Shown here one piece after another: positions 9,625-41,777 of a stretch of DNA of 64,000 nt. The notes below the pieces were generated by a model that was given only the letters and a program-made list of their open reading frames with translations, was not told where the DNA came from and did no database searches. Numbering within the stretch: the first letter of the stretch is position 1; each line of letters starts with the position of its first letter. The stretch spans positions 189,444 through 253,443 of the forward strand of contig CALXWX010000001.1 of NCBI GenBank assembly GCA_944392565.1. The letters run 5' to 3'. A program made the translations under genes and the position numbers. The DNA comes from an uncultured Alphaproteobacteria bacterium (lineage in GTDB: Bacteria; Pseudomonadota; Alphaproteobacteria; Rs-D84).

Positions 9625-11358
9625 TTATGCCGGCATTTTCACCGCATCTGTCATATCTGCGATAAATTTATCCAGCGCAACCGTTTCTTGTTTTTCAACG
9701 CCCAGTTTACGCAATGTAACCGTTTTATCCGCCATTTCTTTTTCGCCAACAACGGCAATGATTGGCGTTTTTGCCAACGATAATTCGCGGATTTTATAAT
9801 TAACTTTTTCATCGCGCAAATCAGCGCGTGCATACACACCCGCATCACGCAACGCATCAACAATTTCCAACGCATAATCACGATATTTTTCAGATATCGG
9901 CGTCACAACAACTGGCTCCGGCGACAACCACAACGGCAAATTTCCCCCCGTTGATTCCAACAATATCCCCATAAAGCGTTCAATTGATCCCAACATTGCA
10001 CGATGCAACATAATCGGGCGATGTTTTTCGCCATCTTCACCGATATAGGACAAATCAAACCGTTCCGGCAAATTCATATCCAGTTGCACTGTACCACATT
10101 GCCATGTACGCCCCAGCGCATCTTTCAAATAGTTATCAATTTTCGGTCCATAAAACGCGGCATCCCCTGGGGCAATTTCATATTCGATACCATTGGCATC
10201 CAACGCATGCTTTAACGCGCCTTCGGCTTTATCCCAAATTTCATCAGACCCGATACGAAATTCTGATTCTTTTCTGGTTGCCAGTTTCATAGAAATATTA
10301 GTAAACCCAAATTTCGCATAAATATCCTTGATAAAGCGCAGGATTTTTACAACCTCTTCTTCCAGTTGCTCTTCGGTACAGAAAATATGCGCATCGTCCT
10401 GGGTAAATTCGCGCACACGCAGCAACCCAGACAGTCCGCCTGCTGCCTCGTATCTATTCACCTTGCCAAATTCTGCCAGATACATCGGCAAATCTTTATA
10501 CGACTTAATCCCCTGCCCAAACACCAACATCCCACCCGGACACGACATCGGCTTTACACAGAATGTTTTTCCATCCTGGGTTTTTCCAGAATAATTGTGT
10601 TCACCATATTTCGCCCAATGTCCACTGCGTTCCCACAGCGATCTGTCCATAACAGACGGGGTTGATATTTCCTGATACCCGGCGCGTTCTTGGCGATGGC
10701 GAATATATTCAATCAGTTTGCGATAAATTTTATACCCCTTGTCATGCCAAAACACCGCACCCGGCGCATATTCTGGTTCAAAATGGAATAAATCCATATC
10801 TTTACCCAATTTACGATTATCACGGGCAGCTGCTTCTTCCTGCATTTTCAAAAACGCGTCCAGTTCATCTTTGGTCGCAAACGCATCAACATAAATGCGT
10901 TGCAGCATTTTATTTTTTGCATCGCCCTTCCAGTATGCACCGGCAACATTACGAATTTTAAACGCGTCCCGTGGCAAATCTTTGGAACTTTCCACATGCG
11001 GTCCGCGACACAAATCAACAAAATCACGGAAAGTATAAATTGATAAATCTTCCCCTGCGGCATTATATTCATTCAACCATTCCATTTTATACGGCTGGTC
11101 TGCGAATAATTGTTTTGCCTCGTCCAGTGATACATTACGCTGTTCAAACCGACCATTTGATTTAATTAATTCACGCATTTCGCGTTCGATTTTTGGAAAA
11201 TCATCTTCGGAAAATCGGTGTTCTGTATCAAAATCGTAATAGAACCCATTTTCAATAGCGGGTCCCCCCGCAAATTTAACATCTGGATATAATTTTTTCA
11301 CCGCCGCCGCCAAAACATGCGCCAGCGAATGCCGTACAGTTTCAATTGGATATGACAT
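9625..11358 (-). CDS. thrS: Threonyl-tRNA synthetase without TGS domain
   Basis: A 577-residue ThrRS. The N-terminal TGS domain is absent: the protein begins directly in the editing domain with VRHSLAHVLAAA (the HxxxH editing motif). The editing-site cysteine is in LCRGPHVES. The class II catalytic core follows, with zinc ligands Cys in KPMSCPGGMLVF, His in FTQDDAHIFC and His in PIMLHRAMLGS; the usual NCPGH is SCPGG here. The anticodon-binding domain ends the protein. ThrRS charges tRNA-Thr. Start choice is limited because no in-frame Met extends it into a TGS domain. A Thr-rich leader peptide (11439-11495) and a strong promoter lie upstream, suggesting attenuation by threonyl-tRNA level. Confidence 0.95.
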   Translation of the reverse strand: MSYPIETVRHSLAHVLAAAVKKLYPDVKFAGGPAIENGFYYDFDTEHRFSEDDFPKIEREMRELIKSNGRFEQRNVSLDEAKQLFADQPYKMEWLNEYNAAGEDLSIYTFRDFVDLCRGPHVESSKDLPRDAFKIRNVAGAYWKGDAKNKMLQRIYVDAFATKDELDAFLKMQEEAAARDNRKLGKDMDLFHFEPEYAPGAVFWHDKGYKIYRKLIEYIRHRQERAGYQEISTPSVMDRSLWERSGHWAKYGEHNYSGKTQDGKTFCVKPMSCPGGMLVFGQGIKSYKDLPMYLAEFGKVNRYEAAGGLSGLLRVREFTQDDAHIFCTEEQLEEEVVKILRFIKDIYAKFGFTNISMKLATRKESEFRIGSDEIWDKAEGALKHALDANGIEYEIAPGDAAFYGPKIDNYLKDALGRTWQCGTVQLDMNLPERFDLSYIGEDGEKHRPIMLHRAMLGSIERFMGILLESTGGNLPLWLSPEPVVVTPISEKYRDYALEIVDALRDAGVYARADLRDEKVNYKIRELSLAKTPIIAVVGEKEMADKTVTLRKLGVEKQETVALDKFIADMTDAVKMPA

Positions 11359-11438
11359 AATAAACGCCTCTACTTGTATTTTAAATTATGAATTTTTGTT
11401 AATTATTACATTGAACGCGCAAATGCGCAAATAGAAAT

Positions 11439-11495
11439 CTATACCCCCGCGGGGGTTGTAGTTGTTGTTGTCAAAAAATAAATAAATCTATTCAT
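11439..11495 (-). CDS. Threonine-rich leader peptide of thrS
   Basis: A 19-codon frame encoding MNRFIYFLTTTTTTPAGV then TAG. Six consecutive Thr codons (ACA ACA ACA ACT ACA ACC) are followed by CCC GCG GGG, so the run leads straight into the self-complementary CCCCCGCGGGGG (11444-11455). It lies about 80 nt ahead of the thrS ATG, behind a good promoter, with only a few bases of 5' leader. This is the layout of classical attenuator leader peptides such as ThrL: ribosome stalling at Thr codons when charged tRNA-Thr is scarce would change downstream folding and raise thrS expression. A U-tailed terminator is not obvious, so the downstream mechanism is inferred. Confidence 0.78.
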   Translation of the reverse strand: MNRFIYFLTTTTTTPAGV

Positions 11496-11505
11496 AACGC
11501 CATAA

Positions 11506-11534
11506 ATGATAGTACTTAATTAAATAAATGTCAA
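11506..11534 (-). promoter_or_regulatory. Sigma70-type promoter of the thrS leader
   Basis: On the minus strand a perfect -35 TTGACA (11534-11529) is followed by a 17-nt spacer and a -10 TATCAT (11511-11506). The expected transcription start is near 11499, only about 4 nt before the leader-peptide ATG at 11495. It sits immediately after the trhA stop codon, so thrS need not depend on the upstream operon. Confidence 0.8.
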
Positions 11535-40306: not shown

Positions 40307-40335
40307 TTGATTTTAAACACCATATATTTTAGTAT
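40307..40335 (+). promoter_or_regulatory. Promoter of the serS leader
   Basis: TTGATT (40307-40312), 17-nt spacer, TAGTAT (40330-40335). A TATATT three bases further on is an alternative -10. Expected start about 40342, some 5 nt before the leader-peptide ATG. Confidence 0.6.
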
Positions 40336-40346
40336 ATTATTCAAAC

Positions 40347-40406
40347 ATGAAAAGATTCATTTTATCTTCATTAAAATCATCATCCCCGTTTGGGGTGCGT
40401 CTTTAA
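40347..40406 (+). CDS. Serine-rich leader peptide of serS
   Basis: A 20-codon frame encoding MKRFILSSLKSSSPFGVRL then TAA. Five of 19 residues are Ser (TCT TCA, then TCA TCA TCC), and the last Ser codon runs into CCCC-GTTT-GGGG (40384-40395), a 4-bp GC hairpin. The C-run can alternatively pair with GGGGG at 40444-40448, closer to serS. The frame lies 90 nt ahead of the serS ATG behind a promoter, with almost no 5' leader. The design parallels the thrS leader (cognate codon run, C/G hairpin, Pro-x-Gly-Val end), which strongly suggests attenuation by seryl-tRNA level. No classical U-tailed terminator is evident. Confidence 0.75.
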   Translation: MKRFILSSLKSSSPFGVRL

Positions 40407-40496: not shown

Positions 40497-41777
40497 ATGT
40501 TGGACATCAGATTTATTCGTGAAAATCCAGATACTGTGAAAAACGCATGCCGCGTCAAGGGATTTGACGACCATGTGGATGAAATCTTGGCACTGGATGC
40601 GCGTGTACGCGAATTAAAAACAATTACACAAAACATGACGGCGGAAAAAAATAAAATCACACGCGAAATTCCCACCGCCGCGGATAAAGCACCATTAATT
40701 GCGCGTTCAAAACAAATCAGCGACGAAATCGCCGCCGATATGGCAGAACTGGCGGAAAAAGACGCAAAATTAAACGACCTGATGCATCGCGTACCACAAA
40801 TCCCAGATGCGTCCGCACCAATTGGCGCAGATGACAGTGCAAATGTCGAAATGCGCCGTGTTGGCACCCCGCGTGAATTTGACTTTACCCCACGCGCGCA
40901 ATGGGATTTATTGGATTTAAATGGTTGGTGGATGCCTGAAAAAATCGCACAAATATGCGGCACACGCACATATTGCCTGGTTGGCGAAGCAGCGGAATTA
41001 CAACTGGCGATTGAAACATATGTGATTCAAAAATTAATATCGCGCGGATTTACATTTATCGAATGTCCATCTATTACAAAGCCACAAACGATATTTGATG
41101 CGGGGCATTTTATGGGCGCCGACCAATCAATCATGAATAATGATGTATTTATGTTGGCTGGCACAGACCGATGCCTGGCGGGAACCGCGGAAATTATTTT
41201 AAATTCACTGCACAGTGGTGAAATACTGCCCGAAAGCGCCCTGCCAATAAAATACGCCGGATTTTCGCCGTGTTTCCGCAAAGAAGCCGGCGCCGCCGGT
41301 CGTGACACCCGTGGTCTGGCGCGCTTTCACCAGTTTAACAAGGTTGAACAATATGTATTCTGCAAACCCGAACAGTCGGACGAAATGCACGAACATTTGT
41401 TAAACAATCTGTGCGATGTAATTGCGGATCTGGAATTGCCATATCGCGTAATTGCAAATTCCACGGGCGATATGGGATTTAACAAGGTAAAGATGAACGA
41501 TGTCGAAGCATGGGTCCCATCCGAAGGCGCATACAAAGAACTGGGCAGTTGTTCATCCATCGGCACATTCCAGGCACGGCGCACAAATACGCGCTATCGT
41601 GAAAATGGTACAAATGAAGTAAAATTCTGTGCAACATTAAATAATACCGGTATCGCCGTACCACGCGCACTGGTGCCATTGTTAGAAAATCATCAAAATG
41701 CAGATGGCAGTGTTAATATCCCCAAGAAACTGCAACCATTAATGGGTGGTCGTACAAAAATTGGTGGAAAACATTAA
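40497..41777 (+). CDS. serS: Seryl-tRNA synthetase
   Basis: A 426-residue class II synthetase starting MLDIRFIRENPDTVKNACRV, the usual SerRS opening. A long antiparallel coiled coil (about 30-100) binds the tRNA-Ser variable arm. Motif 2 is in FSPCFRKEAGAAGRDTRGL, and the serine site and motif 3 include ELGSCSSIGTFQARR and LNNTGIAVPRALVPLLE. It charges tRNA-Ser and tRNA-Sec. The ATG has AAAAGGG 8 nt upstream, so translation of serS itself is SD-led, unlike its leader peptide. Terminator follows directly. Confidence 0.95.
   Translation: MLDIRFIRENPDTVKNACRVKGFDDHVDEILALDARVRELKTITQNMTAEKNKITREIPTAADKAPLIARSKQISDEIAADMAELAEKDAKLNDLMHRVPQIPDASAPIGADDSANVEMRRVGTPREFDFTPRAQWDLLDLNGWWMPEKIAQICGTRTYCLVGEAAELQLAIETYVIQKLISRGFTFIECPSITKPQTIFDAGHFMGADQSIMNNDVFMLAGTDRCLAGTAEIILNSLHSGEILPESALPIKYAGFSPCFRKEAGAAGRDTRGLARFHQFNKVEQYVFCKPEQSDEMHEHLLNNLCDVIADLELPYRVIANSTGDMGFNKVKMNDVEAWVPSEGAYKELGSCSSIGTFQARRTNTRYRENGTNEVKFCATLNNTGIAVPRALVPLLENHQNADGSVNIPKKLQPLMGGRTKIGGKH

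Follow-up and report, generated by a model that had tools for sequence, protein, structure and literature searches.

In the 64,000-nucleotide stretch of alphaproteobacterial DNA that we analyzed (its whole length is referred to here as the window), the threonyl-tRNA synthetase gene thrS is encoded on the minus strand and is preceded by a short candidate leader ORF. A sequence-only reading had placed this ORF between trhA and thrS, and Pfam searches matched both neighbors, with the upstream gene belonging to the HlyIII family (trhA). The features of the locus are given below in the direction of thrS transcription.

11506–11534, minus strand: putative promoter P1, TTGACA – 17 nt – TATCAT, 11 of 12 matches (−35 at 11534–11529; −10 at 11511–11506)
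11439–11495, minus strand: thrS leader ORF, MNRFIYFLTTTTTTPAGV, with ATG at 11495 and stop codon TAG at 11441–11439
11454–11471, minus strand: six Thr codons within the leader ORF, ACA ACA ACA ACT ACA ACC
11443–11456, minus strand: hairpin 1, ACCCC-CGCG-GGGGT, inside the leader ORF; computed at about −8 kcal/mol
11416–11429, minus strand: hairpin 2, TGCGC-ATTT-GCGCG, 9 nt past the leader stop; its arms covary
11402–11430, minus strand: putative promoter P2, TTGCGC – 17 nt – AATAAT, between the leader and thrS
11367–11370, minus strand: thrS Shine–Dalgarno sequence GAGG, 8 nt before the ATG (sequence)
9625–11358, minus strand: thrS, threonyl-tRNA synthetase, 577 amino acids, start codon at 11358; Pfam tRNA_SAD, tRNA-synt_2b, and HGTP_anticodon

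The promoter and the ORF described in the sequence-only reading were both present where it had located them, the latter comprising 19 codons including the stop codon (18 amino acids), with six consecutive Thr codons, the final ACC of which is also the base of hairpin 1. The leader ATG lies 10 nt past the P1 −10 box in the window and 6–10 nt past it in most of the 70 homologs described below, suggesting that the leader RNA probably has little or no 5′ untranslated region. Since none of 20,000 dinucleotide shuffles of the thrS intergenic region contained six consecutive Thr codons in an ATG-initiated ORF, the Thr-codon ORF before thrS exceeds chance expectation; a run of four such codons arose in two of the 20,000 shuffles.

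ThrRS searches in genomes of Candidatus Enterousia (the name carried by several of the best ThrRS matches) and near relatives within the Alphaproteobacteria yielded 70 distinct thrS upstream regions. The frame, ATG, Thr codons, and stop of the leader were kept in all 70, a count that, like those below, does not represent independent events, as the regions are related by descent. At codons 0, −1, −2, −3, −4, −5, and −6 from the hairpin, Thr was encoded in 70, 70, 65, 57, 50, 50, and 18 of the 70 regions, respectively, so that Thr conservation declines from 100% at codon 0 to 71% at codons −4 and −5. In the last two Thr codons the first two bases were invariant, while third bases of Thr codons varied: codon −1 ended in A or G (59 ACA and 11 ACG), and all four third bases occurred at the Thr codons upstream of it. 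Because the third bases vary while Thr stays, this sequence pattern indicates that selection acts for threonine codons in the leader. The sequence-only reading had staked its proposal on finding the frame, with synonymous changes at its Thr codons, in related genomes, and this was the pattern seen throughout the set. P1, with a TTG-type −35 box, was recognized in 67 of the 70 homologs, and its spacer was 17 nt long in 62.

The perfect palindrome CCCCCGCGGGGG (11455–11444), which had been reported at the end of the frame, is present but is better read as a 5-bp hairpin with a free tetraloop. Hairpin 1 was found as ACCCC-N4-GGGG(T) in all 70 regions, with the last Thr codon inside it and the leader stop immediately past it; ACCCC and GGGG were invariant and the tetraloop was variable, so that the residue encoded there between Pro and Gly was Leu, Ala, Phe, Thr, Val, Lys, or Trp. 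Hairpin 2 begins roughly 6–9 nt past the leader stop across the genus. Its arm pairs were GCGG/CCGC (78%), GCGC/GCGC (94%), GCGA/TCGC (100%), GCAC/GTGC (100%), and GTGC/GCAC (100%), with mostly low off-diagonal values; the exception was three GCGT sequences that pair with GCGC through a G–T pair. This hairpin was missing in one species (L041). A role for hairpin 2 as a protein operator was disfavored, as its loop length varies and its arms covary. Rfam covariance models, including the T-box, gave no match in the window or in nine related loci, and a relaxed threshold (E up to 10) returned only chance-level matches in the same sequences.

In E. coli, thrS is autoregulated by ThrRS via a tRNA-Thr mimic in its leader. 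Control of this type, in which ThrRS would bind such a mimic and thereby block ribosome binding, would agree with the presence of conserved hairpins upstream of thrS here too, but is hardly credible for this locus: the hairpin 1 tetraloop and the hairpin 2 loops show free variation and nothing resembling an anticodon loop, both hairpins are at a considerable distance upstream of the start codon with none beside the Shine–Dalgarno sequence, and the in-frame Thr codons would be left unexplained. The enzyme itself also lacks the N-terminal TGS domain according to Pfam, its first residues already lying in the editing domain.

A serine counterpart of the leader, unmentioned in the sequence-only reading like hairpin 2 and P2, was detected upstream of the seryl-tRNA synthetase gene in the same window, with the following features.

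40307–40335, plus strand: promoter-like pair before the serS leader, TTGATT – 17 nt – TAGTAT (sequence)
40347–40406, plus strand: Ser leader ORF upstream of serS, MKRFILSSLKSSSPFGVRL, with TCA TCC and CCCC-N4-GGGG
40383–40396, plus strand: Ser-leader hairpin, TCCCC-GTTT-GGGGT, with CCCC/GGGG paired and T–T at the base
40497–41777, plus strand: serS, seryl-tRNA synthetase; Pfam Seryl_tRNA_N and tRNA-synt_2b

The Ser codons TCA TCC occupy exactly the same position before the hairpin as the Thr codons at thrS. A pattern search found the serS leader in 14 genomes of the genus, the others examined being without it (Ser-leader loci: L182–L187, L189, L196, L199, L202, L207, L208, L210, and L215). All 13 serS leaders compared codon by codon had TCA TCC followed by CCCC-N4-GGGG; 12 were exactly as in the window, and the 13th differed in the loop. 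Throughout the serS leaders only the last two cognate codons were kept, as at thrS, and similar promoter-like pairs preceded other serS leaders. Roughly half of the serS leaders close the hairpin with U–A where thrS has A–U, which at the sequence level represents a compensating change between the two leaders. Together, the conserved frame, the synonymous changes at the Thr codons, and the matching Ser leader at serS strongly support control of thrS by a cognate leader peptide.

Downstream of the thrS leader, a TTGCGN box followed after 16–17 nt by a −10 box was found in all 70 regions (TATAAT in 55, AATAAT in 14, and TAAAAT in 1). We read this pair as a putative second promoter, P2, that would bypass the leader. 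Its sequence overlaps hairpin 2, and it was kept although both the loop of hairpin 2 and the spacing between this hairpin and the −10 box vary in length. TTGC-type −35 boxes are common in the genome to which the window belongs. At one locus (L145), the hairpin at the place of hairpin 2 sits upstream of the P2-like −35 box and does not overlap it. The very strong conservation of P2 (TTG-16/17-TATAAT or AATAAT) could be taken to mean that the region is mainly the thrS promoter with upstream DNA elements and that the leader ORF is a side effect of DNA conservation. This explanation seems highly improbable, as it accounts neither for the third-base variation at the Thr codons and the conserved ATG and stop nor for the independent P1 and the Ser-coding version at serS.

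Across the order, the motif ACNACCCCNNNNGGGGK occurred in 110 of 142 genomes, usually once per genome and before thrS. In other families, the thrS leaders MKLTQIFFFITTTTPLGE, MKENFVILHFSTTTTP, and MLIRKILFTTFTTTTPLGY were found, the second of which has its stop codon within the hairpin loop. These leaders precede thrS genes both with and without a TGS domain, and a link between the leader and TGS loss was rejected on this ground; the domain is absent from ThrRS throughout the genus, and across the order it has been lost in a scattered manner unrelated to the leader. No leader was found in the thrS upstream regions of several relatives or in a sister lineage whose ThrRS is about 60% identical (L084–L110), where the sole match (L093) was discarded as lying inside the upstream gene. 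In a distant genome of the class (L225, G073), MSWIVNKTTTRLTTTP precedes a ThrRS gene without TGS (reverse strand, near 1460–1580), with its stop codon in the loop of a CCCC-TTGA-GGGG hairpin. Another leader-like ORF, MKNIFFLIAIITTTPYGV..., with ACCCC-TTAT-GGGG, was seen in L240 (G265; reverse strand, near 1500); no gene was found directly downstream, and it is possibly a chance occurrence. When about 830 kb of the 939-kb genome were scanned for cognate-codon runs and for CCCC..GGGG hairpins in short ORFs, convincing cases emerged at thrS and serS only, and an Ala-codon version was looked for and not found.

The DNA itself shows the leader ORF with its cognate codons, both hairpins, the conservation of these elements, and the Ser version; from them we infer ribosome stalling and an output step. 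It is very likely that the leader acts in cis as a sensor of the cognate threonyl-tRNA supply for thrS. The P1 transcript would start at or just ahead of the leader AUG, and a ribosome would translate a short hydrophobic peptide before entering the Thr-codon run. When charged tRNA-Thr is scarce, the ribosome would stall on the last codons and its footprint would hold hairpin 1 open; with an ample supply of charged tRNA-Thr, the ribosome would run off and hairpin 1 would close. A ribosome footprint extends 12–13 nt ahead of the A site; whichever of the last three or four Thr codons occupied that site, the 5′ arm of hairpin 1 would be covered. The rise in Thr conservation towards the hairpin fits the need for a stall covering this arm and supports the occlusion model. 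For the output step, we tentatively propose, as plausible but not yet probable, that closed hairpin 1 causes RNA polymerase to pause or halt within the U-rich stretch next to it, that a stalled ribosome allows read-through into thrS, and that P2 provides a basal thrS level bypassing the sensor.

Several points count against this explanation. No intrinsic terminator was flagged on the coding strand between the leader and thrS in the window, so that a canonical terminator is missing. The U-rich tail past hairpin 1, in which the stop codon is embedded, holds 4–5 T in its best 8 nt in most sequences of the genus and is too weak for a standard terminator; it is well kept within the genus, weaker at serS, and not conserved in distant relatives. 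A search for a pairing that could take the place of hairpin 1 also found none, and the model leaves hairpin 2 without a role. Moreover, if the ribosome were tightly coupled, hairpin 1 would be hidden at any level of Thr supply.

Classical attenuators require a U-run terminator and a competing antiterminator. That such hairpins were overlooked here might be argued from the leader ORF with cognate codons, which is like those of the thr, trp, or his operons, and from the loose terminator threshold that 40 of the 70 regions just reached between the leader and thrS, mostly at hairpin 1. We consider this improbable, since nothing downstream pairs with GGGG in place of CCCC (the search for such an antiterminator partner found two independent hairpins only) and the covariation likewise supports two independent hairpins. 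The sequence-only reading had called for alternative RNA folds to be predicted, and no pairing replacing hairpin 1 emerged. Its description of the region as attenuator-like therefore stands for cognate leader control, given the conserved frame and the Ser version, but not for classical attenuation, given that neither an antiterminator nor a U-run terminator was found.

The same sensor could instead have another output: a ribosome stalled near the 5′ end would protect the thrS transcript from degradation or keep Rho away, and the two hairpins would affect how stable the RNA is, not whether transcription terminates. The lack of a U-run terminator and an antiterminator, the two hairpins near the 5′ end of the P1 transcript, and the lack of conservation of the U-rich tail in distant relatives are consistent with this alternative. 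We regard it as less likely but as a serious rival; against it, the U-rich tract directly past hairpin 1 is well kept in the genus and no specific Rho or nuclease sequence was identified. Taken as a whole, the locus is probably best explained by a cis-acting Thr-tRNA sensor with occlusion of hairpin 1.

More speculatively, the thrS and serS leaders may belong to a "direct occlusion" class of one-hairpin leaders, in which the last cognate codon forms the base of a fixed CCCC-N4-GGGG hairpin, an idea that we find possible but somewhat doubtful. If it is true, the stalled ribosome itself would be the antiterminator, and an alternative RNA fold would be unnecessary. The base before CCCC would then switch the amino acid sensed (ACC for Thr and UCC for Ser), with some species compensating for the switch at the closing pair.

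The E. coli thr operon leader (thrL) and the leader of pheST, a synthetase operon, also carry a cognate-codon run in a short ORF. Both have a full antiterminator/terminator switch with a U-run, neither of which was found at thrS here. In Rhodobacterales, uORFC-8-2 upstream of cysS has tandem Cys codons in the first of two stems (PMC8632094). As far as the available section of that paper goes, it resembles the thrS leader in that a short uORF with cognate codons in the first stem precedes an alphaproteobacterial synthetase gene; however, its consensus ends in a U-run terminator, whereas the thrS and serS leaders lack a U-run. It also belongs to another order, carries Cys rather than Thr or Ser codons, and precedes another gene, and that section describes no second promoter corresponding to P2 (PMC8632094). 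According to the passages available, leader peptides precede thrS, alaS, trpS, and leuS in Streptomyces lividans, where thrL (MKRVRPFLETTPGFVPAR) is leaderless and has Thr-Thr-Pro, one hairpin, and no U-rich stretch, with termination unclear (PMC8079986). It shares Thr-Thr-Pro and the lack of a U-rich terminator with the thrS leader here, which is probably also (nearly) leaderless; it differs in that it has only two Thr codons and comes from RNA-seq of one strain of an actinobacterium, and those passages describe neither the CCCC-N4-GGGG hairpin nor the conservation seen here (PMC8079986). The trpL transcript of the alphaproteobacterium Sinorhizobium meliloti starts at the ATG and senses its amino acid via cognate codons, and this leader ORF probably has both features in common with the thrS leader, the latter being predicted to be (nearly) leaderless; in contrast, trpL precedes a biosynthetic operon, has mutually exclusive antiterminator and terminator structures, and makes the sRNA rnTrpL (PMC7298713). 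Our literature search, which mostly did not extend to subscription papers, turned up no published account of a leader before serS or of comparable leaders in this order. Because leader peptides before synthetase genes are already known in Rhodobacterales (cysS) and Streptomyces (thrS), we class the present leaders as a variant of known ones. They are set apart by a common hairpin design in which the final cognate codon is contained, by the use of this design for two different amino acids, and by the putative promoter P2.

With no antiterminator found, one may ask whether a stalled ribosome can serve as the switch by itself, and the presence of Thr and Ser leaders in one genome amounts to a natural swap experiment on amino acid choice. 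Bacteria with genomes below 1 Mb usually lose regulation. Enterousia metagenome-assembled genomes have been reported to lack amino acid biosynthesis pathways (PMC12306168). Even so, almost all genomes of these gut bacteria, tiny as they are, would retain a sensor that reads codons on behalf of a charging enzyme, and, judging from the two leaders, their cells probably sense each of the two amino acids, Thr and Ser, via ribosome passage through its codons.
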